NCBI RefSeq assembly: GCF_004339525.1
Contig: NZ_SMGE01000001.1
Span: 4,464,001 to 4,528,000, forward strand
Source: Flavobacterium sp. 90
GTDB lineage: Bacteria > Bacteroidota > Bacteroidia > Flavobacteriales > Flavobacteriaceae
Length of the DNA stretch: 64,000 nucleotides
Reading direction: 5' to 3'
The translations under genes and the position numbers were made by a program. Below, piece after piece: positions 10,161-61,875 of the stretch (position 1 is its first letter; every line of letters starts with the position of its first letter). Under the pieces are notes generated by a model, which was not told the DNA's origin, did no database searches, and worked only from the letters and a program-made list of their open reading frames with translations.

Positions 10161-13100
10161 ATGGAAACAATCTTTTTAATTAAAGAACTAAGAGAAAAAG
10201 GAGTAGCGGTAAAGCTAGTCGAAGATCAGTTAGAAGTATCTCTGTTAAAAGAGAATGTTGAAGATGAGGTTGTGGAAATAGTAAGAAATAATAAAGAACA
10301 GATTATAAATTATCTGCAGTCTATCTCAATTAATAAATTTAAAGAAATACCAAAAGCAAAAGAATCAAATAGTTATCCTGCATCGAATGCACAATTTAGA
10401 ATTTGGTTTGAATCACAGTCAACTAGCGCATCGATTGCTTATCATATTCCTTTTGAAGTTAAATTAGTAGGCGATTATGATAAAAATGTTTTAGAAGAAG
10501 CGATACGTTATGCAATTAACCGACATGAAATATTGCGAACAGTTTTTCGCCTGAATTCAGAAAAAGAATTGCAGCAACATATTCTATCCGCAAAAGAATT
10601 AAACTTTAATCTGGATTATAAAGATTTTACAGAAGTTGAAAATTCTTTGCACAAAGTAAACGAATACATCAAGGAAGATTTAAATATATCTTTTGATTTA
10701 GAGAACGGACCTTTGCTAAGAGCCGCTTTATTAAAATATGAAAACAATAGCTATTATTTCTATTGTAATTTACATCATATTATCTGTGATGCGTGGTCAA
10801 TTCCTATTTTAAAAAGCGAAATATTAACGGTTTATACTGCACTAAAAGCAAACAAACTACCGGAACTGCCAGAATTAAGAATTCAGTATAAAGATTTTAC
10901 ATTATGGAGTCTGGAAAACCTGGAAGGAGAATCTTTTTTAAAGCAAAAAGCATATTGGTTAGATAAACTTTCGACCGAAACGCCAGTTTTAGAATTACCA
11001 ATTAAAAGTAATCGTCCGCCGGTAAAAACATATCATGGACAAACTCTGAAAACCTATTTTAATAAGAACATTTCGAGTGCTGTAAATGCTTATCAAAAAA
11101 GTAAAGAAGGTTCTTTATATATGGTAATGTTGAGCACATTGCATGTAATGTTAGCAAAATACACCGGAAATAATGATAGCATTATAGGAAGTCCTTTTGC
11201 TGCCAGAGAGCATATGGATTTGAATAATCAGATCGGTTTTTATACCAATACTTTGGCAATTAGAAACCGAGTAGAAAAATCAGATTCATTTGATACTTTT
11301 TTTGCTGGCGTAAAACAATCGATATTAGAAGCGCACAATAATCAGCAATTTCCATTTGAAGAATTAGTCAAAGAATTAAAACTTAAAAAAGATCCTTCGA
11401 GAAATCCTCTTTTTGATGTTATGCTTGTGGTTTTACCAAAAGACGGAGCAAAAAACGAAGAACAATTTGATAGTGAAGAGTCTTTGGAAACGATTACTGT
11501 TGAAAAATCGACTACAAGTAAATTTGATTTGTTAATCTATATAGAGGAAACCGAAAATGAACTTTTATCGCTTAAAGTAGAATACAATACTGATTTATTC
11601 GAAGAAAAATTTATCAGACAATTTATTGGACACTACAAAAAAATAGTAGAATTACTCTTAACGAAGCCTCAGGAAAGTATAAGCGGATTTAACTATTTAG
11701 AAGGACATATTGGAATTCAAAATTTAGATTTAGATATAAATAAATATAAAAAAGATACCGTAATAGCATTCTTAGAAAAACAAGTAATTGCTACTCCGGA
11801 TGCTATTGCTTTACATTATGAAGACGTAAAAATCAGCTATCTTCAATTAAACAATTATTCGAATCAAATAGCAAAAATGCTAAGAGACGAGTATAATGTT
11901 TTGCCAAATACTAACATTGGTGTTCTGTTAGACCGATCGCAGTATAATGTTATTGCGATGTTGGGTGTTATTAAATCCGGAGCATGTTACGTTCCAATAG
12001 ACAGTAAATATCAGGAAAGTCAAAGAGAATATATCATCGCCGATGCTGAGATAACAAACATACTTACTACTTCTAATATAAAATATAGCGGAAGAACAGA
12101 ACATATCAATTTAATCTCTTTGGATGAGTTTCAATACTCAGACGAATTAGTAGAAAACCCTGTTATCGTTAATGAATTAGATGATTCTTCTTTTATTATC
12201 TACACTTCAGGGTCAACAGGAAACCCAAAAGGAGTTATTCAGACACATCGAATGTTGTCTAATTTAATACAATGGAATATATATGATTCCGGTATCTCGT
12301 CAGGTTTGAGACATTTGCAGTACACTTCTTTTAGTTTTGATGTCTCTCTTCAGGATGTTTGGTTTGTGCTTAGTAGTGGCGGAGTATTATATGTAACTCC
12401 AGAATCCATGAAGCTCGATTTTAGTGCTTTATCTACTTACATTATAGAAAATAAAATTGAGGTTTTATGCTTTCCATTTTCTGCTATGACCAGTTTTTTT
12501 GATCATACAGATACGGAATTTTTCAAAAAAAATCAGCTTAAAGATATTATATCGTCAGGGGAACAATTAATCATTAGTGGCGCTTTAGAAAGATTTTTAC
12601 TGGAATTTCCTCACGTAAAGCTTCACAATCATTATGGACCTTCAGAAACCCATGTGGTGACTAGTTTTACAATCTCAGCCAATACCAGCGATATTATACA
12701 TTATATGCCTATTGGTAAGCCATTGGCAAATACAACGCTATACATATTAGACAGTAATCTTCAGCCAGTACCAAATAAAGTAATTGGCGAAATATATATA
12801 GGCGGTGAAAATGTTGCCAAAGGATATGTAAAACTACCGGAATTAACACAAACACGATTTATTTCAAATCCATTAGATCGCGATCAAAAATTGTATAAGA
12901 CCGGAGATTTGGCTTATATGGATTATTCCGGAAATATCATTTATCTGGGAAGAAATGATACTCAGGTAAAAATAAGAGGTTTTAGAATTGAACCGGAAGA
13001 GATCGAAATTCAAATTCAGATGTTTTCAAATAGTATTGAACATACTGTTGTAGAAGCTAAAAAAATAAACGGAGAAAATGCCCTTGTCGTTTATTATGTA

Positions 13101-13586
13101 TCCGATAATGAATTGGATAAAAAAGAGGTTGTACGTTTTCTAAACAGCAGGCTTCCGGATTATATGGTGCCAAATTTTTATGTAAAACTTGACAATATTC
13201 CATTAACTCCAAACGGAAAAGTAAATAGAAAAGCCTTACCGGATGTTACGCCTGAAAACAGTATTTCAAGAGAATATGTAGCGCCAACAAATGAAACAGA
13301 AGCAAAGTTAGCGGCTATTTGGCAAGAGCTTTTAGGCATAGAAAAAGTAGGTATTGAGGACAACTTTTTTGAATTAGGAGGTCACTCACTTTACATCGTT
13401 CGTATGATCTATAAAATCAACGAAATTTTTGAAATTAAAATAAACATGAAAGATGTATTTACGCTCCAAAGCATACGTGAATTGGCAAAAGCAATTGACG
13501 ATGAAATACTATTTAAAGGAGGCGTAAACGTAAGTATAACAGAAGAAACTACAACAAATCAAAATTCAGAAGTATGGGAAATCTAA
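10161..13586 (+). CDS. single-module NRPS (dock-C-A-T), Pro-like code
   Basis: 1141 aa. It begins with a TubC_N-like docking domain (residues 1-55). The condensation domain follows (about 70-500); its motif is HHIICDAWS at 205, so the usual HHxxxDG has Ala in place of Gly. The catalytic second His and the Asp are kept. The adenylation domain (about 535-1030) has YTSGSTG and NHYGPSE. The gap-free code is DVQCISHVV, 7 of 9 with the known Pro code DVQFIAHVV. Pro or a related residue is a moderate-confidence guess, because the two differences line the pocket. T domain Ser is 1076 in GGHS. The protein ends in NSEVWEI, a likely docking tail. Its 3' end overlaps the next gene by 13 bases, which implies co-transcription. 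Confidence 0.95.
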   Translation: METIFLIKELREKGVAVKLVEDQLEVSLLKENVEDEVVEIVRNNKEQIINYLQSISINKFKEIPKAKESNSYPASNAQFRIWFESQSTSASIAYHIPFEVKLVGDYDKNVLEEAIRYAINRHEILRTVFRLNSEKELQQHILSAKELNFNLDYKDFTEVENSLHKVNEYIKEDLNISFDLENGPLLRAALLKYENNSYYFYCNLHHIICDAWSIPILKSEILTVYTALKANKLPELPELRIQYKDFTLWSLENLEGESFLKQKAYWLDKLSTETPVLELPIKSNRPPVKTYHGQTLKTYFNKNISSAVNAYQKSKEGSLYMVMLSTLHVMLAKYTGNNDSIIGSPFAAREHMDLNNQIGFYTNTLAIRNRVEKSDSFDTFFAGVKQSILEAHNNQQFPFEELVKELKLKKDPSRNPLFDVMLVVLPKDGAKNEEQFDSEESLETITVEKSTTSKFDLLIYIEETENELLSLKVEYNTDLFEEKFIRQFIGHYKKIVELLLTKPQESISGFNYLEGHIGIQNLDLDINKYKKDTVIAFLEKQVIATPDAIALHYEDVKISYLQLNNYSNQIAKMLRDEYNVLPNTNIGVLLDRSQYNVIAMLGVIKSGACYVPIDSKYQESQREYIIADAEITNILTTSNIKYSGRTEHINLISLDEFQYSDELVENPVIVNELDDSSFIIYTSGSTGNPKGVIQTHRMLSNLIQWNIYDSGISSGLRHLQYTSFSFDVSLQDVWFVLSSGGVLYVTPESMKLDFSALSTYIIENKIEVLCFPFSAMTSFFDHTDTEFFKKNQLKDIISSGEQLIISGALERFLLEFPHVKLHNHYGPSETHVVTSFTISANTSDIIHYMPIGKPLANTTLYILDSNLQPVPNKVIGEIYIGGENVAKGYVKLPELTQTRFISNPLDRDQKLYKTGDLAYMDYSGNIIYLGRNDTQVKIRGFRIEPEEIEIQIQMFSNSIEHTVVEAKKINGENALVVYYVSDNELDKKEVVRFLNSRLPDYMVPNFYVKLDNIPLTPNGKVNRKALPDVTPENSISREYVAPTNETEAKLAAIWQELLGIEKVGIEDNFFELGGHSLYIVRMIYKINEIFEIKINMKDVFTLQSIRELAKAIDDEILFKGGVNVSITEETTTNQNSEVWEI

Positions 13587-16500
13587 GTATAAAGCAGAGG
13601 TTAACACAGTTAATTCAGGAAGGCATAAGTTTTGAAGTTTCCCAAGGTAAACTTTTGGTAAAAGGTAATTTAAGCGCATTAGATACTGCACAAAAAGAGT
13701 TTTTAAAAGACAATAAAGAAGCAATTATTTCTTTGATAGAAAGCCAGACTCAGGAAATTCCCGAGATCAAAAAAACGGACAAAGAGCTGCCAAAACCGCT
13801 TTCTTTTTCCCAACAAAGTTTATGGCTTCTGGATCGAATCAATAATGGTAGTTCACATTATAATCTTGCTTCTACTTTTAAATTAAAAGGCAAAATAAAT
13901 TACGAAGCTTTAAATCAAACTTTTGCCACGATTCTTGAAAGACACAGCAGTTTGCGCAGCAGCTTTTTTGTTGATGGTCATGGAGAACCCGTTCAAAAAA
14001 TTCAGGATGTACCAAATTTTAATGTTACAGTTGAAGAAATAGATCCGTCAATTCAAAAATTTGAATCTCATATTTTAGAATTAATTGAGCAAGAAGCAAA
14101 TAACGTATTTGATCTAACAAAAGATTTGTTGTTAAGAGTCAAATTGCTCAAAATAAATGATGAAGAACATATTCTGATCGTAACCATGCATCATATTGCT
14201 TCAGACGGATGGTCTATTGGAATTTTAGTTAACGAATTTAATATTCTTTACAGTAGTTATCTTAGAGGAGAATCTAATACACTGCCGGAATTAAACATAC
14301 AATATGCTGATTATGCCTATTGGCAAAGACAATGGCTGAAAGGAAAAGTTTTGGACAATCAGATCAATTATTGGAAAAAACAATTGGCAGATTTACCTGT
14401 GATTCATAGTTTGCCATTGGATAACCCAAGACCATTTACACAAACTTTTAATGGAAATACCTATAATTCATTTGTTGAAAAAAATACATTAACTGCTTTA
14501 TACAATTTATCTAAGGCAGAAGGCGCTACTTTATTTATGGCAATTCATGCTGCATTTAGTACTTTGTTAGCACGATATAGCAATGAAAAAGACATTGTTG
14601 TTGGTACTCCAATTGCTAATAGAGAAAAAGCTGAAATTGCGAATCTCGTTGGTTTTTTTATGAATCTTTTGGTCTTAAGAAGTGATTTATCACAAGAACC
14701 AAGTTTCAGAGCATTACTAAAACAAAGCAAAAAAATGTTGGAAGACTCTTATGAGTATCAACAAATGCCTTTTGAAAAACTTGTAGAAGAATTAAAAGTT
14801 CCAAGAAATTTGGGACACAATCCATTATTTCAGGTTTTATTATCGCTTCAAAATAATACCCAAGAAGAAATTTCTTTGAGTGATATTGTATTGGAACCCT
14901 TTAATTATAAAGACGGAAATAGCGCTAAATATGATCTTAGTTTAAATGTAACCGAAACCCCGGACGGACTTATCCTTTCCTGGGAATACAGTACAGATCT
15001 CTTTGTGGAGTCAACTATTGTTCGTATGGCAGAACATTTTAATACCTTATTAAGTTCTCTATTAGCTAATCCTGATGAAAATGTTTTTAAAGCAAACCTT
15101 ATCGGTGAAAAAGAAGCAAATCAAATATACGAACACTTAAGCGGAGATGTAGTTGAAGTGAGTACGAACGAAAGTGCCATAAACTTTTTTGACTATCAAA
15201 CGAAGAACAATCCAAATCAAACGGCCATTATTAGTAATGATGTTTCGTATAACTATGCACAATTAGGAGAAAAAGTCGATGCAATTGCTGGTTTTTTATT
15301 AGATCAGGGCGTACAAAACGGAGACAAAGTAGGAATCTGTTTATTGCGTAATTTCGAAATGGTCGCTACAATTTTTGCCTGTTTTAAACTTGGAGCCGCC
15401 TATATTCCTCTTGATCCTGTTTACTCTTCAGAGCGAATAAATCAGACTATAAATGATGCACAGCCTAAGTGTATTGTAACATTAAGCGCATTAAAAGAAC
15501 TTTTTTTAAACGGATCATCAAATGAGGATTTTGTTTATTTAGACAAACCTCAATCTCAAAAAGAAAATCAGGTAATTGCGACAAATTGCAGCGGTAACAA
15601 TGTAGCCTATATTATTTTTACTTCGGGAACAACCGGAAAACCTAAAGGGATTGAAGTTACCCATGATAATTTAAGTAATTTATTAAAAGGCTTAGATATT
15701 TCTTTTGGCAGCGAAACCAAACAAACGTGGCTTGCGCAAACGAGTGTTAATTTCGACATCTCGGTTTTAGAACTTATCTGGACGATTTCGAGAGGACATA
15801 AGGTTGTATTGCAACAATCGAATCCTTTTAAATTAGTGTCACATGATAAAATAACGCCATCAAAAAAGATTGATTTCAGCATCATGTTTTTTGGAGCTGA
15901 TAAAAACAATAATCAGAAGTATGATTTATTGTTAGATACTGTAAAATATGCAGATCAAAACGATTTTACTGCAATTTGGACACCGGAACGTCATTTTGGT
16001 GAATTTGGAGGAGCATTTTCAAGTCCTTCGGTTTTAAGTGGTGCTATATCGACGATGACTAAGAATATAAGTATCAGGTCGGGAAGTGTTGTACTTCCTT
16101 TGCATGATCCAATTCGTGTTGCAGAAGAATGGTCGATAGTTGATAATTTAAGCAATGGTCGCGTAGGAATAAGTATTGCGTCCGGATGGCATCCTAATGA
16201 TTTTGTTTTTTCAAATTCAAATTATAGCGATCGCCATAATGAGATGCGTGAAAAAGTTACTGAGCTTAAAAACCTTTGGGAAGGAAATCCTATCGTGCGC
16301 AAGAATGGTGTTGATAAAGACTTTACAATACAAATCAGACCAACGCCAATACAAAAAAAATTACCGCTTTGGATAACTGCTGCCGGAAGTCCTGAAACTT
16401 TTAAATATGCCGGAGAAATTGGCGCCAATATTCTAACGCACATGCTTGGGCAAACGTTAGAAAAACTGGAAGCAAATATTGCGGTGTATCACCAAGCCTT

Positions 16501-19027
16501 AAAAGACAACGGATTTAGCATAGAAGATAAACAAGTTTCTCTGATGCTTCATACTTATATTGACGCTTCACATGAAGATGCGACTGCTACCAGTGAGCAG
16601 CCGTTTAAAGATTATCTGAGATCTTCTATGAAATTAATGGAGCCTTTGGCAAAAGAGTTAGGGTTAGATATTGATACGCAAAGTGATGAAATCATTGATA
16701 TTGCATACAGAAAATTCAGTAAAGAAAATACACTTATTGGTACTCCTGAATCGTGTCAGAAAATGCTTTTTAGTATCCAGAATATCGGAGTTACTGAAGT
16801 AGCTTGTTTAGTAGATTTTGGAGTTGAAAGCGAAAAAGTATTGTCCAGACTTGAAAAGATTATAGAAACCAAAACCTTATATCACTCTCAGGCTGAGCTT
16901 ACAAAACTATTAAATATAGACAATCAAAGAACCGAATTGGAGCTTATTGACACGTATAAAGTGACTCACGTTCAGATGACTCCATCACAATCTAAACTGA
17001 TAGCAGATTTAAATAGTCAGGATAAATCCAAAGAATTATCTTCAGTTCAGCATTGGTTTATTGGTGGAGAACCTTTAAATCAAAATTTAATTAACAGCCT
17101 TAGTTTAATTACTAATTCTAAGTTGTATAACATGTACGGACCGACTGAAACTACAGTTTGGTCAACATGGAGAGAGATTAACAGCAAAGACTTTAAAATT
17201 GGTAAACCTATAATAAATACCAATTTATTGCTTCTGAACGAGTTTGAGCAACAAGTACCTTTTGGAGTTGTTGGAGAACTTTATATTGGAGGTTCAGGAG
17301 TTGCTAAAGGATATTATAATAATGCTGAACTCACGAATAAAAGCTTTAAACAAGTCATTAATTCTCACTTTGGCAACAGCCGATTTTATAAAACGGGAGA
17401 TTTAATGAAATTGACAAGCGATGGAACGTTTGAGTATGTTGGCCGAAAAGACAATCAGGTTAAAGTAAACGGTTATCGTATTGAACTTGAAGAAATAGAA
17501 AAAACAATTTCTAAAGTTCCCGGAGTTAAAAATTGTAAAGTTTTACCAATTACAGAAAACAATACAACCTACTTGTCAGCCTACGTAATTAAGGATGATA
17601 TTGTTTATGGAAACTACACAGAACTTCCTGTTGAAGAACAAGCGAAACCTTTTTATTTCCCTGATGGCAGTACTGTTTATCACCAGTCTGATCGCCAATT
17701 GGCAATGTTGTATAAAGAAATATTTCAGGACGGAATCTATTCCAGACACCATATAAAAGTACCTGAGAATGGTTTAGTATTAGATGTAGGAGCCAATATA
17801 GGAACCTTTAGTATGGAGGTAAACCAAAGTCAGCCTAGCGCAACAATTATTGCTTTTGAACCTATTCCGCAAATTTTTTCTGCTCTTAAGAAAAATTTTG
17901 AGCACCGACAAATAAAAGGACGTATTCTGAATTTTGGAGTTTCCAATAAAAAAGAAAGCGCAACTTTTCATTATTATCCGGAGATGTCTGGAATGTCGGG
18001 CAGGTTTACAGAAAAAGAGACAATCGTTGATGCAGTCGGAAAATATATAGAGTATGACAAAGCCCTCATGGCAGATGAAACGTATCAATCCGGAGAAAAA
18101 AACAGCATTGTAAAATCTTTCTACGATACTATAGACGGAGAAAATGATTTTTCGAACGAATTCAGAGAATACCTTACCTCGTTGTATAATTCTAATGAAG
18201 TCGAATGTCAGCTTACAACAATATCTGATGTAATTGATGATCTGAAAATACAGGCAATAGATTTACTAAAGATAGACGTAGAAAAGAGCGAATGTCTGGT
18301 ATTAGAAGGAATTCGTGAAGAACATTGGCCAATGATCCATCAGGTTGCAATTGAAGTCGACGGAGACAATAATCTGAATACCATCTTAGAGCTGCTTAAC
18401 ATAAAAGGATATGAGGTAAACGTTGACGAATTGGTAATGAGCGATGCCGAATTGCCAAGAGACGAAAATACCTATATGGTTTATGGAACTAATCACAAGA
18501 TTGGCGAGAAGAAAAAAGATCAAATCCAGCAACAATTCGAATCGCAAACAAACGAGACTTCTATCAGAGATTTTGTAAAGAAAATGCTTCCGGATTATAT
18601 GAGTCCTAAGGATATCAATTTTGTGCCGTCAATTCCTTTAATGGAAAATGGAAAAGTAGACATGATGAAGTTGAAAGAAATTAAACCTCAGGAATCTATT
18701 TCGAATAATGTTATCACACTTAATAATAAAACAGAATTAGATATTTATCGCATTTGGTGTGAGGTTCTTAAGAAAGAAAACATCCCATATCACGTCAGCA
18801 TTTTTGAGGCTGGAGGTAATTCAATTGAGATTGTTGTATTGCATGAAAAGCTTCAAAAAGAATTTAGTGTTGAGTTTTCATTAATAGAACTTTTCCGAAA
18901 CCCTACAATTCCTCAGCAGGCAAAATTGATAGAAAATGCCAACAAAGACAATCAGGAAGATGTTGCAATCAAAAAAGCAGTAGACAAAGGAGCGTCTCGA
19001 CGAAATGCCCGTTCTAATCGAAATTAA
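13574..19027 (+). CDS. NRPS with doubly interrupted Gly A domain (dock-C-A[LLM][FkbM]-T)
   Basis: 1817 aa. Order: TubC_N-like docking domain (1-60); C domain (about 75-510, HHIASDG at 206); A domain N-part with FTSGTTG and the A4 motif NFDISVLEL; a luciferase-like monooxygenase at about 766-1102; A domain resumes with A5 NMYGPTE and A8 KVNGYRIELEEIE; an FkbM-type methyltransferase at about 1349-1642; A9/A10 (LPDYM, NGKVD near 1691); T domain (GGNS Ser 1750). Across the insertions the code reads DILQFGMVW, close to the Gly code DILQLGLIW. A Gly-activating A domain with a monooxygenase in the same A4-A5 position is known from myxothiazol MtaG and melithiazol MelG, where alpha-hydroxylation of Gly leads to an amide. 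Here the module is internal, and the added methyltransferase suggests alpha-methoxyglycine. The tail is basic (RRNARSNRN), and the next protein is a PKS without a TubC_N domain. Confidence 0.95.
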   Translation: MGNLSIKQRLTQLIQEGISFEVSQGKLLVKGNLSALDTAQKEFLKDNKEAIISLIESQTQEIPEIKKTDKELPKPLSFSQQSLWLLDRINNGSSHYNLASTFKLKGKINYEALNQTFATILERHSSLRSSFFVDGHGEPVQKIQDVPNFNVTVEEIDPSIQKFESHILELIEQEANNVFDLTKDLLLRVKLLKINDEEHILIVTMHHIASDGWSIGILVNEFNILYSSYLRGESNTLPELNIQYADYAYWQRQWLKGKVLDNQINYWKKQLADLPVIHSLPLDNPRPFTQTFNGNTYNSFVEKNTLTALYNLSKAEGATLFMAIHAAFSTLLARYSNEKDIVVGTPIANREKAEIANLVGFFMNLLVLRSDLSQEPSFRALLKQSKKMLEDSYEYQQMPFEKLVEELKVPRNLGHNPLFQVLLSLQNNTQEEISLSDIVLEPFNYKDGNSAKYDLSLNVTETPDGLILSWEYSTDLFVESTIVRMAEHFNTLLSSLLANPDENVFKANLIGEKEANQIYEHLSGDVVEVSTNESAINFFDYQTKNNPNQTAIISNDVSYNYAQLGEKVDAIAGFLLDQGVQNGDKVGICLLRNFEMVATIFACFKLGAAYIPLDPVYSSERINQTINDAQPKCIVTLSALKELFLNGSSNEDFVYLDKPQSQKENQVIATNCSGNNVAYIIFTSGTTGKPKGIEVTHDNLSNLLKGLDISFGSETKQTWLAQTSVNFDISVLELIWTISRGHKVVLQQSNPFKLVSHDKITPSKKIDFSIMFFGADKNNNQKYDLLLDTVKYADQNDFTAIWTPERHFGEFGGAFSSPSVLSGAISTMTKNISIRSGSVVLPLHDPIRVAEEWSIVDNLSNGRVGISIASGWHPNDFVFSNSNYSDRHNEMREKVTELKNLWEGNPIVRKNGVDKDFTIQIRPTPIQKKLPLWITAAGSPETFKYAGEIGANILTHMLGQTLEKLEANIAVYHQALKDNGFSIEDKQVSLMLHTYIDASHEDATATSEQPFKDYLRSSMKLMEPLAKELGLDIDTQSDEIIDIAYRKFSKENTLIGTPESCQKMLFSIQNIGVTEVACLVDFGVESEKVLSRLEKIIETKTLYHSQAELTKLLNIDNQRTELELIDTYKVTHVQMTPSQSKLIADLNSQDKSKELSSVQHWFIGGEPLNQNLINSLSLITNSKLYNMYGPTETTVWSTWREINSKDFKIGKPIINTNLLLLNEFEQQVPFGVVGELYIGGSGVAKGYYNNAELTNKSFKQVINSHFGNSRFYKTGDLMKLTSDGTFEYVGRKDNQVKVNGYRIELEEIEKTISKVPGVKNCKVLPITENNTTYLSAYVIKDDIVYGNYTELPVEEQAKPFYFPDGSTVYHQSDRQLAMLYKEIFQDGIYSRHHIKVPENGLVLDVGANIGTFSMEVNQSQPSATIIAFEPIPQIFSALKKNFEHRQIKGRILNFGVSNKKESATFHYYPEMSGMSGRFTEKETIVDAVGKYIEYDKALMADETYQSGEKNSIVKSFYDTIDGENDFSNEFREYLTSLYNSNEVECQLTTISDVIDDLKIQAIDLLKIDVEKSECLVLEGIREEHWPMIHQVAIEVDGDNNLNTILELLNIKGYEVNVDELVMSDAELPRDENTYMVYGTNHKIGEKKKDQIQQQFESQTNETSIRDFVKKMLPDYMSPKDINFVPSIPLMENGKVDMMKLKEIKPQESISNNVITLNNKTELDIYRIWCEVLKKENIPYHVSIFEAGGNSIEIVVLHEKLQKEFSVEFSLIELFRNPTIPQQAKLIENANKDNQEDVAIKKAVDKGASRRNARSNRN
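15871..16880 (+). other. luciferase-like monooxygenase domain inserted in A domain
   Basis: This is an in-frame insert of about 335 residues between adenylation motifs A4 and A5. Family hallmarks visible are an FSIMFFGADKNN strand, IWTPERHFGEFGG, SGSVVLPLHDPIRVAEEW, ISIASGWHPNDF and a late GTPESC segment. These are typical of the flavin-dependent luciferase-like monooxygenase domains of natural-product megasynthases, not of light-producing luciferase. Expected role: flavin- and O2-dependent hydroxylation of the carrier-bound amino acid, here the alpha carbon of Gly. Boundaries are approximate. Confidence 0.9.
17620..18500 (+). other. FkbM-type methyltransferase domain inserted in A domain
   Basis: This is an in-frame insert of about 290 residues after adenylation motif A8 and before A9. 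The SAM-binding loop reads LDVGANIG (protein residues 1403-1410), followed by IIAFEPIP and the late strand LLKIDVEKSECLVLEGI, which is characteristic of the FkbM methyltransferase family. FkbM enzymes are mostly O-methyltransferases. Beside a monooxygenase in the same A domain, the natural inference is methylation of the hydroxyl the monooxygenase adds. Boundaries are approximate, and N-methylation cannot be excluded from sequence. Confidence 0.88.
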
Positions 19028-19046
19028 TTAACAAAAGTTGGACAAA

Positions 19047-22000
19047 ATGAAACAAATTTCTGAAAATGATATTGCCATAATAGGGATGGCTGGTCGGTTC
19101 CCTAACGCAAAAAACATAGATGAATATTGGCAAAATCTTGTTAGTGGTGTCAATAGTATCGTTAAAGTCGATGAAGAAGAGCTTCTTGCATCCGGTTTTT
19201 CTGAAAGTATGTTGAATCATAAGCGTTTTGTTAATGCAAGTTCAAGGCTTGAAGATGCAAAATACTTTGATGCTGATTTCTTTGGACTATCAAATATAGA
19301 GGCTACACATATGGATCCTCAAATTAGATTGTTATTGCAAACGAGCTGGCATGCCATAGAAGATGCCGGTTATGATATGAGTCGTCTCGATGTGGCTGTA
19401 GGAAACTTTTGTGGAATGTCTACGAACTCTTATTTATTAAAAGTATTAGATACAAATTCATATACAGAGCATGCAGATCCTTTGTTGTACAGAATCTTAA
19501 ATGAAAAAGATTTTTTGGCAACGTGGATTTCTTATAAGCTTAATCTAACAGGACCGGCAATGAGCGTGCAAACAGCTTGTTCGACTTCATTACTTGCCGT
19601 TCATTTAGCCTGTCAAAGTTTATTGAATCGCGAATGTGATATGGCTTTGGCGGGAGGAGTATCTTTCGATTCAAATGAAAATATAGGTTATATACATACA
19701 CCCGGATCCATCTATTCTAAAGACGGAGTTTGTCGTCCTTTTGACAGCGCTGCCAGCGGAACAGTTAATGGAGACGGCGTTGGTTCGATTGTTTTAAAAA
19801 GAGCAACCGATGCTATAAAAGACAAAGATTATGTTTATGCATTGATAAAAGGAACTGCAACAAATAATGACGGAGCCAACAAACAGGGATATACCACTCC
19901 AAGTGTAAGTTTTCAAAGAGATGTCGTTCTTGAAGCTTCAGGAGTTGCAGATATTGATCTGGAATCTGTGGGAATGATTGAAGCACATGGTACAGGAACT
20001 TTAATTGGAGATCCGATTGAAGTAGCGGCACTTACCGAAGCATTTCGGGAATACACAGATAAGGTGCAATATTGTGCTATTGGTTCTGTAAAAGGAAATA
20101 TTGGACATTTGGATGCAGCTGCAGGAATAGCTTCGATTATTAAAGCCGCATTATGTGTGAATAAAGGGATTCTGGTACCGAGTATTAATTTTTCAGAAGC
20201 GAATCCTTCTTTACAATTAAGTACTTCTCCTTTTTATGTGAGCCAAAAAACGTCAGTATGGCCACAACATTTTGAACTTAGAAGAGCAGGAGTTAGTTCT
20301 TTAGGAGTTGGCGGAAGTAATGTTCACGTGCTTGTTGAAGAACCGCCAATGATCGATGTAGAAGAAGAAACTAAAAGACCTTTTGTAGTCGCATTATCTT
20401 CTTTGAACCAACAAAATTTGCAATCGCAGAAAAAACAATTATCAGAATATGTATTAGCAAATCCAACACTAACACTTGCTGATTTAGAATTTTCGAGCCT
20501 TTACGGAAGAAAAGTTATGCCGTACAGATTTAGTGTGGTTTGTACTGATAAAGATGAATTAGTAGCGCAATTAAACGGAATTCAAAACGATAATTGTTTT
20601 GAAGGATTTGGAAATATACCCGAAACGGTGTTCATGTTTCCGGGACAAGGCAGCCAATATGCGAATATGGCATTAGCATTATATGAGAATAATGAAGCCT
20701 TTAAAAAGGATATGAATTATTGTTTTGATTATCTGAAAACAATATCTCAGGTTGATTTTAAGGAAACCATTTTCTCTGATGACAGTGTTTTATTAGATAA
20801 AACCGAAAATACGCAAATAGGCTTATTCATAGTTGAATATTGCCTTACCAAAGAATTAATGAGAGCCGGAATCAAACCGGATGCAATCATCGGACACAGT
20901 TTGGGAGAATATACAGCGGCTTGTATTGTAGGTTCTCTTACACTGGAAGATGCATTAAAACTCGTTTACCATCGCGGAAGATTAATGGGAATGATGCCAA
21001 AAGGAGCAATGCTTCTGGTACAATCTACAGAAAATGACCTAAAACCATTATTGCTAAACGGAGTTTCTTTTTGTGCTTTCAATGCTGATAATAGTGTTGT
21101 AATTGGAGGATCGATAGAAGATATTGGTGAGCAATGCAGCATATTGGAATTAAATAGCATCGAATACAAAAAATTAAAAGTATCCCACGCTTATCATACG
21201 CAAATGATGAACGATGTCTTAGCTGAATATGATGAAATATTGTCTCAGGCAGAGTTTAAAAGTTTTGAATCTGTAATATTTTCTACCTATACAGGTGATC
21301 TTGTAGAACCGGAAGTTTTTTGTTCTAAACTGTATTGGTTAAACCAAATCATTCATCCTGTAAAGTTTTCGCAAGCGATAAAAAAGGCAGCTTCTCATTT
21401 TTCGAATCCTGTTTTTATTGAAATTGGACCAGGAAACGGATTGTCTTATTTTGCCAATACGATCTTTAATCATCAGGTTAGCACCGTTAGTTTATTGCCA
21501 AGACCATCCAATAAAAGCAATGCTGTAACTAATTTTTATGAAGCAAAAGCGATTCTTCTTGCAAAAGGAGTACGTTTTAATTTACCTGAAGTTCACGAAG
21601 GAAAAAGAGTTCCGATACCAGGTTACGTTTTTTCAAAAGACAGGTTTTGGAAACCAAAAATCAAGATCAATTACAAGAGTTTTTACGACGTAAAGGAATC
21701 TTATTATAAGACCAACAATCAATATAAAAGCGACCGACTAAGATCTTCAATAGAGATTGAACTTGCTCATGATAAGGAAGTTTCAGAGGAGCTATTAAAC
21801 AGCTTAAACGATTTAAATGCGCAGTATTTAAATGAAGTTAAAAAGCTTTTTTCGACAACAGAAAAAATTAGTAATCTAATTGAAGTATTGTATGATGAGG
21901 TTGTTTTAGATAGTGAAGAAATAACTCCAAGCTCTATACAATTCAATAAAAAAAGAAATGTCAACAGTGTATTTGTAGCACCGGAAACTGAAACCGAAAA

Positions 22001-22271
22001 AAGTATCCAGGAATATTGGAGCACTATTTTAGGCTATTCTCCTGCAGGAATACAAGACAATTATTTTGAAGTAGGCGGAAACTCTTTATTGGCTACAAAA
22101 TTACTGTCTTTATTGTCTGATAAATTCGAAATCACATTGTCTTTCAGAGAGTTGTCAGAATGCCAGACGATAAAAGAACTGGCTGTTTTGATCGACTCAA
22201 AAAAGGAAATTCTCGAGTTAGTAGAGACCATCGAAATGGATAATAATAACGACAATTATATTGAATTATGA
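19047..22271 (+). CDS. type I PKS module (KS-AT-T), malonyl-type AT, no reduction
   Basis: 1074 aa from the ATG at 19047; the frame is open a little further (TTG at 19038), but ATG fits better. The ketosynthase covers about residues 5-435, with Cys 178 in TACSTS, His 314 in EAHGTGT and the later GNIGHLD, so the triad is complete. The acyltransferase (about 530-830) has FPGQGSQ and GHSLGE (Ser 618). HAYH at 714-717 stands where malonyl-specific ATs carry HAFH, so malonate is predicted. A linker of about 110 residues with no KR or DH motifs leads to a PCP-like carrier (GGNS Ser 1013). The module should extend the upstream Gly-derived residue by an unreduced beta-keto C2 unit. The C-terminus NDNYIEL is a docking-type tail, and the stop overlaps the next start by 4 bases. 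Confidence 0.95.
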   Translation: MKQISENDIAIIGMAGRFPNAKNIDEYWQNLVSGVNSIVKVDEEELLASGFSESMLNHKRFVNASSRLEDAKYFDADFFGLSNIEATHMDPQIRLLLQTSWHAIEDAGYDMSRLDVAVGNFCGMSTNSYLLKVLDTNSYTEHADPLLYRILNEKDFLATWISYKLNLTGPAMSVQTACSTSLLAVHLACQSLLNRECDMALAGGVSFDSNENIGYIHTPGSIYSKDGVCRPFDSAASGTVNGDGVGSIVLKRATDAIKDKDYVYALIKGTATNNDGANKQGYTTPSVSFQRDVVLEASGVADIDLESVGMIEAHGTGTLIGDPIEVAALTEAFREYTDKVQYCAIGSVKGNIGHLDAAAGIASIIKAALCVNKGILVPSINFSEANPSLQLSTSPFYVSQKTSVWPQHFELRRAGVSSLGVGGSNVHVLVEEPPMIDVEEETKRPFVVALSSLNQQNLQSQKKQLSEYVLANPTLTLADLEFSSLYGRKVMPYRFSVVCTDKDELVAQLNGIQNDNCFEGFGNIPETVFMFPGQGSQYANMALALYENNEAFKKDMNYCFDYLKTISQVDFKETIFSDDSVLLDKTENTQIGLFIVEYCLTKELMRAGIKPDAIIGHSLGEYTAACIVGSLTLEDALKLVYHRGRLMGMMPKGAMLLVQSTENDLKPLLLNGVSFCAFNADNSVVIGGSIEDIGEQCSILELNSIEYKKLKVSHAYHTQMMNDVLAEYDEILSQAEFKSFESVIFSTYTGDLVEPEVFCSKLYWLNQIIHPVKFSQAIKKAASHFSNPVFIEIGPGNGLSYFANTIFNHQVSTVSLLPRPSNKSNAVTNFYEAKAILLAKGVRFNLPEVHEGKRVPIPGYVFSKDRFWKPKIKINYKSFYDVKESYYKTNNQYKSDRLRSSIEIELAHDKEVSEELLNSLNDLNAQYLNEVKKLFSTTEKISNLIEVLYDEVVLDSEEITPSSIQFNKKRNVNSVFVAPETETEKSIQEYWSTILGYSPAGIQDNYFEVGGNSLLATKLLSLLSDKFEITLSFRELSECQTIKELAVLIDSKKEILELVETIEMDNNNDNYIEL

Positions 22272-25200
22272 ATATAGAATTATTGTTAAAAGAGTTAATT
22301 GAAAATAAGGTAAAGCTTTCTGTAAAGGAAGATAAACTATTATGTCAATTACCGGAAAAAGGAATTGACGATGCTCTGTTTTCTAAATTACAACAACATA
22401 AGGAAGAGGTTAAACAATTTATTCAGAACACAAAAAAGAATAAACTTAAAAAATCACCAATCCTAAAACAAGATAAAAACGCATTAGATAAACCGCTTTC
22501 TTTTGCGCAGCAGCGTTTATGGGTTTTAGATCAAATTGAAGGAAGTACACATTATAATATTTCAAATGCTTTATTATTAAAAGGAAATTTAAATAAAGCT
22601 ATTTTTCAAAAAGCATTCGATACCATTCTCGAGCGTCATGAAGTATTGCGAACCGTATATGATTTGGATAAGAATGGCAATGCTATTCAGATTGTGCAGC
22701 CGTTTGTTCCAATTCAAATAGGGAATGAGGACTTGCGCAGTTTCAATAAAGAAGAGCAGGATACAATTATATATAAAATTCAAACAGAAGAATCTAAAAA
22801 AGTTTTTAACCTGAAAAGCGACATCATGCTTCGGGTTAAATTACTTCAGATTAAGGAAGATGAATTTATTGCTGTAGTTAATATGCATCATATTGCTACA
22901 GACGGTTGGTCAATAGGAATTTTAATTAATGAATTTAATACTTTATACACAGCTTATTCTCAGGGAAAATTAAACCCTTTGACGGAGCTGGAGATTCAAT
23001 ATTCTGATTATGCACATTGGCAACAGGAAACATTAAAAGAGGAAAAATTAGAAGAATTAAAAAATTACTGGTTAAATCAATTGTCAGATTTGCCACCGGT
23101 ACATAGTTTACCTCTTGATTATACACGACCTAAAGTACAAACTTTTGAAGGTGATACAATTTACTCCCAAATTGATAGCACAACTTTAAACAGCTTAAAG
23201 AAGATATGCGATAAAGAAGGAGCGACTTTATTTACGGGATTACATACCATTTTTGGTCTTTTATTGGCAAGATATAGTAATGAAACCGACATAATAATGG
23301 GTACACCTATTGCAAACAGAGAACAATCAGAAGTTAAAAATCTGATAGGTTTCTTTGTTAATATGCTGGTGTTGCGCAGTAATTTGTCTCAGAATGAAAG
23401 TTTTGTAACATTAATTAATCGAAATAAAGAGATGATGTATGATGCTTTTTCGCATCAGCAAATGCCTTTTGATATGTTAGTGTCAGAATTACAACCAAAG
23501 CGAAATCCAAATTACAGTTCTCTTTTTCAGATCATGTTTGTTTTGCAAAACAATGAAAAAGCAGAACCGAAACTACCGGAATTATCTTTAAAACAAATCG
23601 AACAATCAAAACCATTTGCGATGTACGATTTGTCTTTTACGGTCAACGAAGACGAGAATGGTTTAGCATTGAGTTGGGAATACAACAAAGATATTTTTAA
23701 GAAAGCGTCAATAGAACGAATGTCTAATCATTTTGAACGCCTGCTTAAATCATTAATAGAATTTCCGCACGCAAATGTGGGCAAAGCTAATATTATCAGT
23801 AATCATGAACGAAATGAGCTGATTATTGGTTTGAACCAAACAGATGTAAAATATGCAACAGATAAAACAGTACTTGATCTGTTTGAAGAACAGGTAAAAA
23901 GTACTCCGGATTATACAGCAGTCAAATTTGAAGAAAAAGAATATTCGTATCATCAATTAAATCAATTGGCAAATCAATTGGCGAATTATTTAAAAGAAAA
24001 TTACGGAATCACAGCCAATGATTTAGTTGGAATACAATTAGAGAGAAGCGAAAAAATGCCTTTGTCGATTATTTCCATCTTAAAAGCAGGCGCAGCTTAT
24101 GTTCCTATTGGAGTTGATTATCCTGAGGATCGTATCAGTTACATTATAGAAGATGCCAGAATAAAAGTTGTGATTAATGAAAGGGAGTTAGAAAAATTCT
24201 TCTCAGTAAAAGATGATTATGCTACAGAGAACCTTTCTTTTAAGCCAGTTCCAAATGATTTAGCTTATTGTATTTATACTTCCGGTTCAACAGGAGTGCC
24301 CAAAGGAGTCTTAAATCAACATGCAGGTTTGTTCAACAGATTAGTATGGATGAAAGATGATTTGAATGTAAAAGAAAAGGAAGTTTTTTTACAGAAAACG
24401 CCTTATACATTCGATGTTTCGGTATGGGAATTTTTACTTCCTGTAAGTATTGGCAGCACCTTAATTATCGCAAAACCAGACGGACATAAAGATCCGGAAT
24501 ATCTAAAAGAAATAATAGAGAAAGAACAAGTAAGTATCATTCATTTTGTTCCTTCGATGTTAAGTGTTTTTCTGCAATTTGCTACTTACAAAGAAGTTTC
24601 AGCCCTTAAGCATATTATTTGTAGTGGAGAAGAATTACTTCCTAAAATAGTAAGCCAAAGCAAAACACAATTTCCTCAAACCAGAATTCATAATTATTAC
24701 GGACCAACAGAAGCTGCCATAGATGTAACCGCAATAGATGTTACAGATTTGGAGATCTCAAATACCGTAACCATTGGAAAACCTGTTGCAAATACAAGAA
24801 TTTATATTGTTGATGAAGCACTTAATTTACAACCGGCAGGAATTGCAGGAGAACTATTAATATCTGGAATACAGGTTGCCAAAGGATATCTTAATCTGCC
24901 TGATTTAACAAAAGAAAGATTTATTGATGATCCGTTTATTGCTGGCGAAAGAGTTTACAGAACCGGAGATATCGCATCATGGAATGAAGATGGAACAATA
25001 AAATATCTGGGCAGAAAAGACAATCAGGTTAAAATAAGAGGTAACAGAATCGAATTGGGTGCAATAACAACCGCTTTGTTGTTAAAACCGGATTTAAAGG
25101 AAGCTATCGTAACCGTTTATAAAAAAGAAGATTTAGAGCATGAATTAGTAGCTTATGTAGTTTCTGATGAAGTTCAGAATGCATCGGCTTTGCGCAAGTT

Positions 25201-25654
25201 CTTATCGGAAAGAATTCCGGAATATGAAATCCCGTCCTATTTTGTTCAGGTAGATAAATTAACACTTTCATCAAACGGAAAAGCAGATACAAAAGCATTA
25301 CCAAGTCCGGAACATCATAAACTATCGACCGGAATTGCCTATGAATCTCCACGAAATGAAAAAGAAGAAAAACTAATTCAAATTTTCGCAAATGAACTTG
25401 ACAGAGATCATAAAGAGATCGGAATTCATGATAACTTCTTTGACTTAGGAGCCAACTCTATTAAACTAATTAAAATTCTGAACACCATTAACAAAGAATT
25501 TGACATGGATTTAAAACCTGTCTTATTGTTTCAATATGCCACAATAAATGCATTGGTAGAATATGCATTTACGGAAACTTCACAAGAAGAGGACGAAGAC
25601 GATTTTGCTCTTTCAGATGAAATTGACAGTTTGATGGATCTGATGGAAGATTAA
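22268..25654 (+). CDS. single-module NRPS (dock-C-A-T), predicted Ser
   Basis: 1128 aa. A TubC_N-like docking domain (1-55) is followed by C (about 70-510, HHIATDG at 207), A (about 540-1010) and T (Ser 1064 in the variant GANS). The A domain has YTSGSTG, FDVSVWEF and NYYGPTEAAID. Its code DVWHISYID matches Ser codes such as DVWHISLID except at one position (Tyr for Leu). It accepts the beta-keto chain from the preceding PKS. The C-terminal tail is strongly acidic (EEDEDDFALSDEIDSLMDLM). The next megasynthase (26712) begins with a basic stretch (KRDQRKKD) and lacks a TubC_N domain, so a charge-based contact is plausible. A dioxygenase gene lies between the two. Confidence 0.95.
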   Translation: MNIELLLKELIENKVKLSVKEDKLLCQLPEKGIDDALFSKLQQHKEEVKQFIQNTKKNKLKKSPILKQDKNALDKPLSFAQQRLWVLDQIEGSTHYNISNALLLKGNLNKAIFQKAFDTILERHEVLRTVYDLDKNGNAIQIVQPFVPIQIGNEDLRSFNKEEQDTIIYKIQTEESKKVFNLKSDIMLRVKLLQIKEDEFIAVVNMHHIATDGWSIGILINEFNTLYTAYSQGKLNPLTELEIQYSDYAHWQQETLKEEKLEELKNYWLNQLSDLPPVHSLPLDYTRPKVQTFEGDTIYSQIDSTTLNSLKKICDKEGATLFTGLHTIFGLLLARYSNETDIIMGTPIANREQSEVKNLIGFFVNMLVLRSNLSQNESFVTLINRNKEMMYDAFSHQQMPFDMLVSELQPKRNPNYSSLFQIMFVLQNNEKAEPKLPELSLKQIEQSKPFAMYDLSFTVNEDENGLALSWEYNKDIFKKASIERMSNHFERLLKSLIEFPHANVGKANIISNHERNELIIGLNQTDVKYATDKTVLDLFEEQVKSTPDYTAVKFEEKEYSYHQLNQLANQLANYLKENYGITANDLVGIQLERSEKMPLSIISILKAGAAYVPIGVDYPEDRISYIIEDARIKVVINERELEKFFSVKDDYATENLSFKPVPNDLAYCIYTSGSTGVPKGVLNQHAGLFNRLVWMKDDLNVKEKEVFLQKTPYTFDVSVWEFLLPVSIGSTLIIAKPDGHKDPEYLKEIIEKEQVSIIHFVPSMLSVFLQFATYKEVSALKHIICSGEELLPKIVSQSKTQFPQTRIHNYYGPTEAAIDVTAIDVTDLEISNTVTIGKPVANTRIYIVDEALNLQPAGIAGELLISGIQVAKGYLNLPDLTKERFIDDPFIAGERVYRTGDIASWNEDGTIKYLGRKDNQVKIRGNRIELGAITTALLLKPDLKEAIVTVYKKEDLEHELVAYVVSDEVQNASALRKFLSERIPEYEIPSYFVQVDKLTLSSNGKADTKALPSPEHHKLSTGIAYESPRNEKEEKLIQIFANELDRDHKEIGIHDNFFDLGANSIKLIKILNTINKEFDMDLKPVLLFQYATINALVEYAFTETSQEEDEDDFALSDEIDSLMDLMED

Positions 25655-25706: not shown

Positions 25707-26648
25707 ATGGAAATTAAAAATGTTGACGAAATAGCCGGTTTAAAAATTTTACTTCAAATTGATGAAGACATTTCTCCAATTGATTGGGCAAAGAACAATA
25801 AAGATTTTGTTGAATCATTTCTGTCTACAGAAGGAGCATTGCTAATCAGAGGTTTTAAAAATGTAGATGAAAATGAGTTTGGTGAAATTTTAGGAAATCT
25901 TTTTGGAGAAGAATTATTGGATTATACCTATAGATCAACTCCAAGAACTGAATTAAAAAATAAAGTATATACAGCGACTGAATATCATCCTTCTGAAACT
26001 ATTCCGCAGCATAACGAAAATGCATATTCTAATGCATGGCCAATGAGAATAGGCTTTTTATGTGTAACTGTAGCTCAGAAATTAGGAAATACACCTATAT
26101 CAGATAGTCGATTGGCGTATAAAAAAATACCACAGGAAATACGTGATGAGTTTGAAAAAAAGGGAGTTATGTATGTGCGAAATTATTCGGATATCGATTT
26201 GCCTTGGACAGAAGTTTTTCAGACAGAAGACAAATCAGAGGTAGAGAACTATTGCAGAAAGAACAATATCGATTTTGAATGGACTGAGAACGGATTGAGA
26301 ACAAAACAAACCAATCAAGCCAGTATTAATCATCCTGTAACTAACGATAAACTTTGGTTCAATCAGGCACATTTGTTTCATGTAAGCAGTTTAGACGAGG
26401 AAATACAGGAAGGTCTTATTGAGCTTTTGGGAGAAGAAAACTTACCAAGAAACGCTTATTATGGAGATGGAACTCCTATTGATTTAGAAACACTTGCGTT
26501 GATAAGAAATGTATATGAAGATACAAAAGTTACTTTTCAATGGGAGAAAAATGATCTTTTGATATTAGATAATATGCTTTATACCCACGGTAGAGAACCT
26601 TTTGAAGGACCAAGAAAAATTTTGGTTGGTATGGGAAGAAAGTACTAA
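25707..26648 (+). CDS. SyrP/TauD-family Fe(II)/2-oxoglutarate dioxygenase
   Basis: 313 aa, cytosolic, with no signal peptide. It shows the TauD/TfdA fold signature: the HxE iron-ligand pair His102-Asn-Glu104 in QHNENAYSNAWP, the distal iron-ligand His294 in YTHGREPF, and Arg residues just after it for 2-oxoglutarate. Glu in place of Asp in the HxD motif is usual for the SyrP-like branch, whose members beta-hydroxylate an amino acid bound to an NRPS carrier domain (SyrP acts on Asp). Standing between the Ser NRPS and the next PKS, it most likely tailors a carrier-bound residue of this assembly line. Asn, Lys or Ser are candidates, but the sequence does not say which. The gaps on both sides are about 50-60 bases, so it is probably in the same operon. 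Confidence 0.9.
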   Translation: MEIKNVDEIAGLKILLQIDEDISPIDWAKNNKDFVESFLSTEGALLIRGFKNVDENEFGEILGNLFGEELLDYTYRSTPRTELKNKVYTATEYHPSETIPQHNENAYSNAWPMRIGFLCVTVAQKLGNTPISDSRLAYKKIPQEIRDEFEKKGVMYVRNYSDIDLPWTEVFQTEDKSEVENYCRKNNIDFEWTENGLRTKQTNQASINHPVTNDKLWFNQAHLFHVSSLDEEIQEGLIELLGEENLPRNAYYGDGTPIDLETLALIRNVYEDTKVTFQWEKNDLLILDNMLYTHGREPFEGPRKILVGMGRKY

Positions 26649-48668: not shown

Positions 48669-51600
48669 ATGCAAGAATCAGTAGCAATAATTGGAGTGTC
48701 TTTTGAATTTCCCGGGATTAAAACCTGGAAAAACTTAACAGCGTCTCTTACAGATAGTAAAACATATATAGATCATTTGTCATCTGATCGTTTAGAAGAT
48801 ATTTACAATAGATTTGGGAATGTAGAAATGTCCCAAGGAGGGTATCTGCCTAATATAGATCAGTTTGATAATAAATATTTTGGAACCACTGAACGAGAAG
48901 CCACAAAAATATTTCCAGAGCACCGATTATTTTTATTGCATGCTGTAAGAGCATTTTATGATGCCGGATATGTAGAAGAAGATTTAAAAGGCTCCAATAC
49001 AGGAATTTTTTACACAGCATCTAAATCAGCTTATGCTAATTTTTCAGAATTATCTTTTAATGAATTTGATGCATTATTTGGAATTGAAGGAACTCGATTG
49101 GCGAACTTTCTGGATCTGCGAGGACCGGTTATAGCTATTGACACCACTTGTTCTTCTTCTTTGGTTGCTGTAAACAATGCTATCCATAGTTTAAATTTTA
49201 AGGAATGTGACAAGGCTTTAGTTGGAGGTGTAAAATTTAGCGCAATCACTAAAGCAGCTGCTGATGAATCAACTGTAGTTTCCAAAAAACAACATTGTAA
49301 ACCCTTTGATGAGGATGCAGATGGATTAATGAATGGGGAGGGAGCAGTTTGTATTGTACTGAAACGTCTAAAGGACGCAGAAAGAGATAAAGATCCAATT
49401 TATGGTATTATTAAAGGAAGTGGGATAAATCATGGAGGAGCCAGAATTTCAAGTTTAACAGCCCCAAGTTCAGATGCACAGAAAGATGTGATTGTAAAAG
49501 CATGGGGGAATGCTGAGGTTTCTTCCAATCAAATTAAATTTATTGAAGCGCATGGAACGGGAACAATTCTTGGGGATCCTATAGAATTTGAGGGACTCAA
49601 AGCTGCTTTTTTAGAAGATAATCAATCCAACGCACTTTGCTCCATAAGCTCATTTAAAGGACAAATAGGGCATTTGGATTATTTAAGCGGTTTAGCGGGC
49701 TTAATTCGTTTAATAGCCGCGTTAAATAACAAGGTTTTACCCATACAGGCAAACTTCAAAAGATTAAATAAGCATCTGAATACCGAAAATAGTCCCGTAA
49801 AAATTCAGGATAGTAATGCTATTTGGGAAAGCACAAACGGAGAACGAATAGGTGGTGTTAGCAGCTTTGGATTGACAGGGACGAATGTACACCTGGTTGT
49901 TTCCCAAAAAGAAGAAATAAAACAGCTTAATACTAAAGAATTTTTCTACCTGCAAATCAGTGAGGACACTAAAGAAAGATTCGATAATTTAAAAAAACAA
50001 ATTTTAAAAAAGGTTGAAAATTTAAACTTAGAACAATTAAGTCAATTTTGCCATAAAACAAATCGTTTGTTTCAGTTAAAAAATGAGAATCAGGGATATG
50101 TTTTCTCCTCATTGGATATGCTCAGGAACGATTTAAAAGCAGCTGAAAAGAGTATTCCTAAAAATGCAGTTTTTTATATTCTTGATTTGGATATATTGGA
50201 ATATAACAAGGATATAATTACTTCGATACTCGAGGAAAATGAATTGATTAGCCTACAATGGGATAAAAACATACCTCATTCCGTAGATTCGATAGATAAT
50301 AAGAAAGTTCTTAATGTACTTTTTCAATTTGTTTTATATAAGTATCTGATTGCTAATCTGAATAAAAAGGTAAAATTCATTACCAAAAAAGGAGAAGGTA
50401 TTATCGAACAGTTAGTAAATAAAGTAATAACTCCTCTCCAACTTATTAATAATCCTGAACTATGTGTTGCTAATGACATCTTTTTTGATGAAGAAGCATT
50501 CAAAAAGTATTTAGAAATAAACAATGCTTCAGATAAAGTAATACTTGTGGATTTTTCAAATAAAAATCCTGGCCGATTCAATGATTTGAAGTTAGATTTA
50601 GTAAATATAAATGGAACACTAACAGATTTACAGCGTTTTAAATTGTACAGCGAAATAATAATAGCTGGAGCTAACGCTCTGAAAAGCAAAATTAATCCGA
50701 TGTTTCATGATTCAGAGCTTCCTTATTTTGATTTAAAGAGATTTTGGCCGGAGACAAAACAAATTGTTCAGGAAAAAGCTATTTCCACTATAATTCCGGA
50801 TGTAACAAAATATGAACTATTGCAAATTACGGAGATTGTCAAAGAAGTCTGGTGTGAAATCTTAGAGATCACAGAAATAGAAGTTGACGATAATTTTTTT
50901 GATTTAGGAGGAACCTCTCTTACAGCATTAGATATGATGAGTGAAGTGGAAAGTAAAATTAATGGAAGTACTATTTCTTATGAAGAAATGTACAACCACA
51001 CCACTATCACAGAATTGTCTCAATTTATTTTTAATCAATTAAAGACTAAGGATTTGATTGAAACTGAAAAGAAAGAGGTTGTTAATGTAACTGATGATGA
51101 AATCAGAAAGAATGATTACGAACTGCTGATTCAAAATATTGAAAGTGAACAATACAACAAAATCATAGCGAAAAAAATAGTAGTCACAGGTGCTACAGGT
51201 TTAGTCGGCTCATTTTTGGTAGAGTATTTACTTAAAAATACAGACGCTCAAATTGTATGTTTAGTGAGAGGAGACGATTATAATTCAGAGCATGATAAAT
51301 TTTGGACAATATTTAATCAGAACTTTAAGATTCAACATAGTTCAAGAATTCAAATTGTGAAAGGGGATCTGTCTCTAATCAATTTTGGTTCTGAACAAAA
51401 TGATGTACTCGCAAATGTTGATACTGTTTTTCACGTGGCAGGTTCACCATCTTTTGTTAGTCAATACAAACCAAAAGAGCATATCAATTACATAGGAACC
51501 AAAAATTGTATCGATTGGGCAAACTCAAATGGTGTTCAGAACTTCAATTTGATCTCAACGATAGGAATAGTAGGTCAAACAATGCCAAAAGAAATTAAAA

Positions 51601-61841: not shown

Positions 61842-61875
61842 ACTCGAATAAATAGAAAAAAATAATAAAAACATT

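Follow-up and report, generated by a model that had tools for sequence, protein, structure and literature searches.

A predicted glycine-activating NRPS adenylation domain with both a monooxygenase and an FkbM methyltransferase insert in Flavobacterium and distantly related bacteria

We analysed a nonribosomal peptide synthetase (NRPS) module of Flavobacterium sp. 90 in which one adenylation (A) domain, predicted to activate glycine, holds two further enzymes, a luciferase-like monooxygenase (MOx) and an FkbM-type methyltransferase. The module lies in a stretch of 64,000 nucleotides (positions 4,464,001 to 4,528,000 of contig NZ_SMGE01000001.1), hereafter the window, to which all window coordinates refer. 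The closest described systems each share a part of this arrangement. The nearest precedent is the corallorazine-like A2 domain of Serratia and Pseudomonas (38 pathways), a glycine A domain with a methyltransferase in the type cluster and an added MOx; however, that methyltransferase is a type I S-adenosylmethionine (SAM) N-methyltransferase and not FkbM, and the authors expect truncated linear products (PMC11342130). MtaG and MelG of myxothiazol and melithiazol have a flavin monooxygenase inserted into a glycine A domain, at the a4-a5 loop, and end in an amide, a precedent that an earlier, sequence-only reading of this DNA had named; there a thioesterase comes next and the carbinolamide becomes the amide, while the available text mentions no methyltransferase insert (PMC10204066). 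The window module has the same a4-a5 monooxygenase, but ketosynthase (KS), acyltransferase (AT) and acyl carrier protein (ACP) domains follow it instead of a terminal thioesterase. In module 4 of SolF (solanimycin) a monooxygenase is likewise embedded in a glycine A domain and the assembly line continues; unlike in the window, the insert sits at a8-a9, the alpha-hydroxyglycine stays free and no methyltransferase is mentioned in the portion available (PMC10204066). Module 16 of HtmB1 (hangtaimycin) has an FkbM-type O-methyltransferase, assigned by deletion and bearing the DxGxNxG motif that its authors name for FkbM; it differs in its substrate, and the portion available mentions no embedded monooxygenase (PMC10624959). 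Methyltransferases at a8-a9 are common, as in TioS A4M (5wmm), KtzH and ColG, the last with two in one site; the available text names neither FkbM nor a monooxygenase for these, and reports a functional engineered A domain with methyltransferases at a2-a3 and a8-a9 (PMC11355689).

Both MOx at a4-a5 of glycine A domains and methyltransferases at a8-a9 are thus known, while the pairing of MOx with FkbM is apparently new. Neither alpha-methoxyglycine as an NRPS product nor an account of the glycine step of the pederin pathway was found in the literature searched. In pederin and onnamide a carbon derived from glycine reportedly bears an O-methylated N-acyl aminal and is extended by a polyketide synthase (PKS), as predicted here, but their oxygenase and methyltransferases are reported to be stand-alone, unlike the embedded window inserts. 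No A domain with MOx and FkbM was found in the same literature; Lundy 2021, which reportedly classifies interrupted A domains and includes di-interrupted ones with two methyltransferases, and Piel 2002 could still describe one. The sequence-only reading had known of no described A domain with this pair of inserts, which agrees with the searches for MOx with FkbM, but MOx with an N-methyltransferase in a glycine A domain is published (PMC11342130). OnnC is cited elsewhere as a proposed luciferase-like monooxygenase hydroxylase (PMC8739492).

The module is encoded on the forward strand by a single open reading frame of 1817 residues (13574-19027) with the order condensation (C), A and thiolation (T) domain. 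The C domain (13796..15127; Pfam residues 75-518) has its HHxxxDG motif within MHHIASDG at residue 205. The A domain runs through A4 at 15188..15829; the first insert, a MupA/Atu3671-type MOx dependent on flavin mononucleotide, follows at 15842..16897 (residues ~757-1108). After A5-A8 (16898..17593) comes the FkbM insert (17594..18553; residues ~1341-1660), then A9-A10 (18554..18673), with the lysine of the NGK motif at residue 1694, and finally the T domain (18743..18928; Pfam PP-binding 1724-1785), with its serine in EAGGNS, the motif lying at 1745. The edges of both inserts are estimates; nevertheless, the motif positions (A3 679, A4 726, A5 1186, A7 1272, A8 1290, A9 1672, A10 1692) place the MOx insert after A4 and before A5, and the FkbM insert after A8 and before A9. 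Pfam finds AMP-binding in two stretches, the best at 539-752, and a piece of AMP-binding_C at 1660-1694. The motif columns give the A10 lysine and the code DILQFGMVW, with D, I and L before the first insert and the remaining six residues after it, which we take to be a glycine code; the domain is therefore predicted to activate glycine. An AlphaFold model (32-row alignment) assembles a single A-domain fold from the residues flanking both inserts and retains it around the methyltransferase at A8-A9; its top Foldseek match is 5wmm (TioS A4M). The insert sites, core motifs and code that the sequence-only reading had put forward are thus upheld by Pfam, NCBIfam and the motif positions, and the structure model that it had proposed as a check gives one fold. 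Its span of 15700..18700 marks the right site, but the full A domain is slightly wider (15188-18673).

The MOx scores 442 bits against TIGR04020 (NCBIfam cut-off 244.45) and matches Bac_luciferase over residues 774-1074 (Pfam, 2.7e-42). Its closest solved domain is 6ket, the Ox domain of PuwE, a hybrid PKS/NRPS protein, with 45% identity in the fold match. The second insert belongs to PF05050 (Methyltransf_21; residues 1404-1614, 1.4e-14, 55.1 bits against a cut-off of 22.7), and not to the type I N-methyltransferases of the corallorazine-like domains; it has a predicted class I SAM methyltransferase fold with the motif DVGANIG (residues 1404-1410, 17783-17803), and Pfam gave no other methyltransferase family in the 1817-residue frame at E 0.001.

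To place these inserts among relatives, we pooled two protein searches with the FkbM piece (best 120 of 287 and best 120 of 1049) and one with the MOx piece (best 120 of at least 4340), giving 303 proteins including the window's own; the family counts below stand among the matches listed. At least 131 A domains carry both inserts; the first two sets supplied 57 of them and the third set 74. This count rests on BLAST domain order; when strict motif criteria were applied to the first set, A8 and A9 were both recognised around FkbM in 19 of its 57 domains, and A8 without A9 in 26. So many homologous domains rule out chance or an annotation artefact as the source of the double insert. The source names include Flavobacterium, Aquimarina, Kordia, Chitinophaga, Roseivirga, Pseudoalteromonas luteoviolacea, Alteromonas, Nostoc, Cyanosarcina, Herpetosiphon, Roseiflexaceae, Pyrinomonadaceae, Blastocatellia and Corallococcus, which we assign to Bacteroidota, Gammaproteobacteria, Cyanobacteria, Chloroflexota, Acidobacteriota and Myxococcota. 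A contig scan adds at least three loci (L006, L007, L009) in at least two Holophagae genomes. The search for further examples that the sequence-only reading had called for thus reveals a conserved family, scattered over distantly related bacteria, rather than a one-off.

Across this family the inserts and the code are retained together. The FkbM domain and its SAM motif are kept throughout 56 aligned double-insert domains, and the window FkbM departs from none of the positions that are at least 90% conserved among them. The MOx motifs WxPERHF, GSVVLP and ASGW are intact in the window and recur in the A domains with MOx only. Three FkbM residues, E1461, M1471 and G1473 (YYPEMSGMSGRF), reach 95% conservation or more in the 56 double-insert domains and no more than 15% in 64 FkbM-only domains from the first set. 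With the codes read on one alignment from which MOx had been excised, the glycine pattern DI[LVI]QxG[MLV][VI]W was found in 130/130 readable double-insert domains and in 69/69 domains that have MOx and in which no FkbM was found (P0122 and P0125 among them being incomplete pieces). It was found in just one of 96 FkbM-only A domains (76 with a single FkbM, 20 with a tandem), namely P0282 (1175 residues), whose FkbM is nearest to the double-insert type. Most of the remaining FkbM-only codes are Glu/Gln-, Ser-, Thr- or Asn-like. Hence, FkbM occurs in A domains with a glycine code almost exclusively alongside a predicted built-in alpha-hydroxylase, which fits O-methylation of an alpha-hydroxyl rather than N-methylation.

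From the observed domain order, motifs, code, pairing and predicted folds we infer both chemistries, their order and their action after condensation. The module would load glycine on its own carrier protein, and the upstream peptide would be condensed onto it; the embedded flavin MOx would then hydroxylate the alpha-carbon of the glycine, after which the FkbM insert would methylate the new hydroxyl with SAM. The resulting N,O-acetal, a carrier-bound peptidyl-alpha-methoxyglycine, would be extended by two carbons on the downstream KS-AT-ACP module. We give this explanation, hydroxylation and O-methylation to a PKS-extended alpha-methoxyglycine, a probability of roughly 0.7; the sequence-only reading had proposed the same two steps, and they fit the codes (130/130 against 1/96) best. 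An un-acylated alpha-hydroxyglycyl thioester is expected to decompose, so hydroxylation more likely follows condensation. For the same reason a carrier loaded with glycine alone would be an unfair ground for refuting hydroxylation, and the N-acyl-glycyl form is relevant too.

Several points weigh against the O-methylation proposal. In P0282, which has the glycine code and no embedded MOx, FkbM may act without an embedded monooxygenase. The 130 codes come from related sequences and are not independent events, with few state changes on the trees. The Asn/Gln/Glu-like codes among FkbM-only domains raise the possibility that FkbM might not depend on the loaded residue having a hydroxyl. Moreover, one FkbM-family enzyme, EreM, N-methylates backbone amides (PMC9259500).

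The strongest rival builds on EreM and P0282, and on the N-methyltransferase that accompanies MOx in the corallorazine-like glycine A domains of 38 pathways (PMC11342130): FkbM would methylate the glycine nitrogen, giving an N-methylglycine or N-methyl-alpha-hydroxyglycine unit. We consider this unlikely. An FkbM that makes sarcosine should be common in glycine A domains without MOx, where a single case in 96 was seen; furthermore, a tally of 30 FkbM enzymes counts 29 as O-methyltransferases, four of them by experiment, with EreM as the thirtieth (PMC9259500).

A second rival follows the myxothiazol route, in which an unstable hemiaminal breaks to a peptide amide while FkbM is idle or acts elsewhere. 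Hemiaminals of this kind are fragile: myxothiazol-type lines, whose MOx occupies the same a4-a5 site of a glycine A domain, break to the amide, and solanimycin B keeps an unmethylated hydroxyl on its alpha-hydroxyglycine (PMC10204066), while hangtaimycin decomposes slowly (PMC10624959). As 129/131 double-insert modules are the last recognised in their protein, with the neighbouring gene mostly unseen and some proteins being fragments, terminal cases may exist elsewhere. However, the window module is followed by KS-AT-ACP, the next modules seen elsewhere are KS-AT or C, and the SAM motif of FkbM is conserved, which together make amide release improbable here.

Less probable still is that MOx acts on a neighbouring intermediate, for example at the alpha position of the ketide once the KS module has acted, or in a Baeyer-Villiger oxidation, with FkbM methylating that oxygen. 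The origin of 6ket in a hybrid PKS/NRPS protein is compatible with this, as are the hydroxylating and chain-shortening roles cited for such enzymes (PMC8739492); but the order A(1-4)-MOx-A(5-8)-FkbM goes with a glycine code in 130 domains, and the MOx-only domains share that code. Finally, that one insert is an inactive structural relic is very improbable given the conserved FkbM positions and intact MOx motifs of the window, even though the clean A8-A9 join of one domain without FkbM (P0126) makes FkbM look dispensable for A-domain folding.

The O-methylation proposal of the sequence-only reading had a further element, namely that methylation, by stopping collapse to an amide, lets the chain pass on to a KS. 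The KS is indeed there: a KS-AT-ACP module occupies 19038..22271 (forward strand), with the active-site cysteine of the KS in TACSTS and GHSLGE in the AT; Pfam gave no ketoreductase match in it. In the seven cases in which the module next to a double-insert module was seen it was KS-AT in five, namely the window, G184, G1369 (of the genus Kordia), L006 and L007 (with a separate FkbM match intervening in L007), and C in two (P0273, P0278); the sequence of L009 ends before its next module. Among MOx-only modules, 64/70 are last in their protein and 6/70 precede a C within it. MOx-only modules also stand directly before KS-AT in two loci, L132 with a full glycine code and L028, a draft locus with broken frames and a partly readable code. 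P0204, which has FkbM, T, KS and AT in one protein, begins past the MOx site and was left out of both tallies. Thus, the downstream KS fits the proposal, yet methylation is no condition for a KS, and a rule by which FkbM gives the chain access to a KS is weakened by L132 and L028 and by the two C-preceding modules. In view of L132, L028, the MOx-only modules before C and solanimycin B, a requirement of methylation for passing the chain on is only partly supported.

It is possible, though we hold it to be less than an even chance, that these domains form an undescribed trifunctional family in at least six phyla, which would activate, hydroxylate and O-methylate glycine to a PKS-extendable alpha-methoxyglycine as a cis-encoded counterpart of the pederin aminal and a possible masked N-acyliminium electrophile. 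If so, alpha-methoxyglycine would be an added NRPS monomer and the three-in-one A domain an addition to the repertoire. The double insert would offer a genome-mining handle for uncharacterised hybrid products, and a natural twice-interrupted A domain a scaffold for engineering tailored ones. Trapping of the hemiaminal by methylation against its breakdown to an amide would become testable, with P0126 as a natural comparison.

The trees differ in the number of state changes that they imply for the double insert. In a first FkbM tree 59 double-insert rows are split from 64 FkbM-only rows at one branch (Shimodaira-Hasegawa-like approximate likelihood ratio test, SH-aLRT, 100). A wider FkbM tree (103 rows chosen from 220) needs 3-4 changes, at least one of them forced, and MOx trees of 127 and 74 rows need 5-6, so that a single origin can no longer be taken as settled. 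The 74-row tree holds 32/57 double-insert domains, 37/70 MOx-only domains and five loci; it excludes P0122, P0123 and P0125, pieces ending before or inside FkbM that count as MOx-only in the 127-row tree. P0122 and P0125 stay within the 69 code readings, and all three within the 70 module-order rows. P0126 (1499 residues) is nested among the double-insert domains and is probably a natural loss of FkbM.

Within the sampled groups the double insert is rare. A genome census with FkbM alignment A1 as query found both inserts in 2/395 Flavobacteriales genomes, including the window's own; the other 11 matches there comprise one FkbM inside an A domain that lacks MOx and ten without an adjacent A-domain match. 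A phylum-wide draw at a stricter cut-off returned the same three genomes. The census gave 1/199 Acidobacteriota genomes, one already known, and 1/11 in the genus Kordia, with the identical genome as the only one of 204 in its family. At E 1e-80 four of 386 cyanobacterial genomes matched, and in none of them did MOx accompany FkbM; searches without a positive control gave 0/79 in the genus Chitinophaga and 0/11 in that of G778. When 60 relatives were searched with the whole protein, the sole full-length match was the window's own; with MOx as query, four of 246 genomes matched.

Related arrangements of the two inserts were also seen. The same monooxygenase occurs at a C/A junction (L133:7520-8524) and after A8 (L055:6158-7147). 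A same-genus genome (G226; L124:5277-9477) has an FkbM-only A domain with a TauD match nearby. In the P0193-P0225 set (e.g. P0193 residues 912-1454) A domains carry a tandem FkbM pair after A8; of 20 codes read, 19 are of DAKD- type and one of DGKD-type. A second FkbM lies directly 3' of the double-insert module in L007 (11446-12111) and L009 (11437-12039; Holophagales genome) and groups on the tree with the FkbM domains that occur in PKS proteins, P0060 and P0084 among them.

The remainder of the window assembly line, all on the forward strand as far as its flanking modules are concerned, comprises a preceding C-A-T module (10161..13586; code DVLALIHVV) and, after the KS module, another (22268..25654) with the code DVWHISYID, presumably Ser-like. 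Ahead of the glycine module the window and Kordia lines share the codes DAWY, DAKHDGDI, DTESIGTVC and DLxNNALTY, and this shared series suggests that the two lines probably make related products. Amid the NRPS and PKS genes a stand-alone TauD/TfdA-family dioxygenase (25707-26648) is likely a second tailoring oxygenase. At 48669-52295 a KS without an AT match is joined to a carrier and a terminal NAD_binding_4 reductase, so the line may end by reductive release. Further NRPS genes lie rightward (57348-63813 and L118-L119), the one at 57348 having the order C-A-T-C and a glycine code, and perhaps belong to a second cluster.
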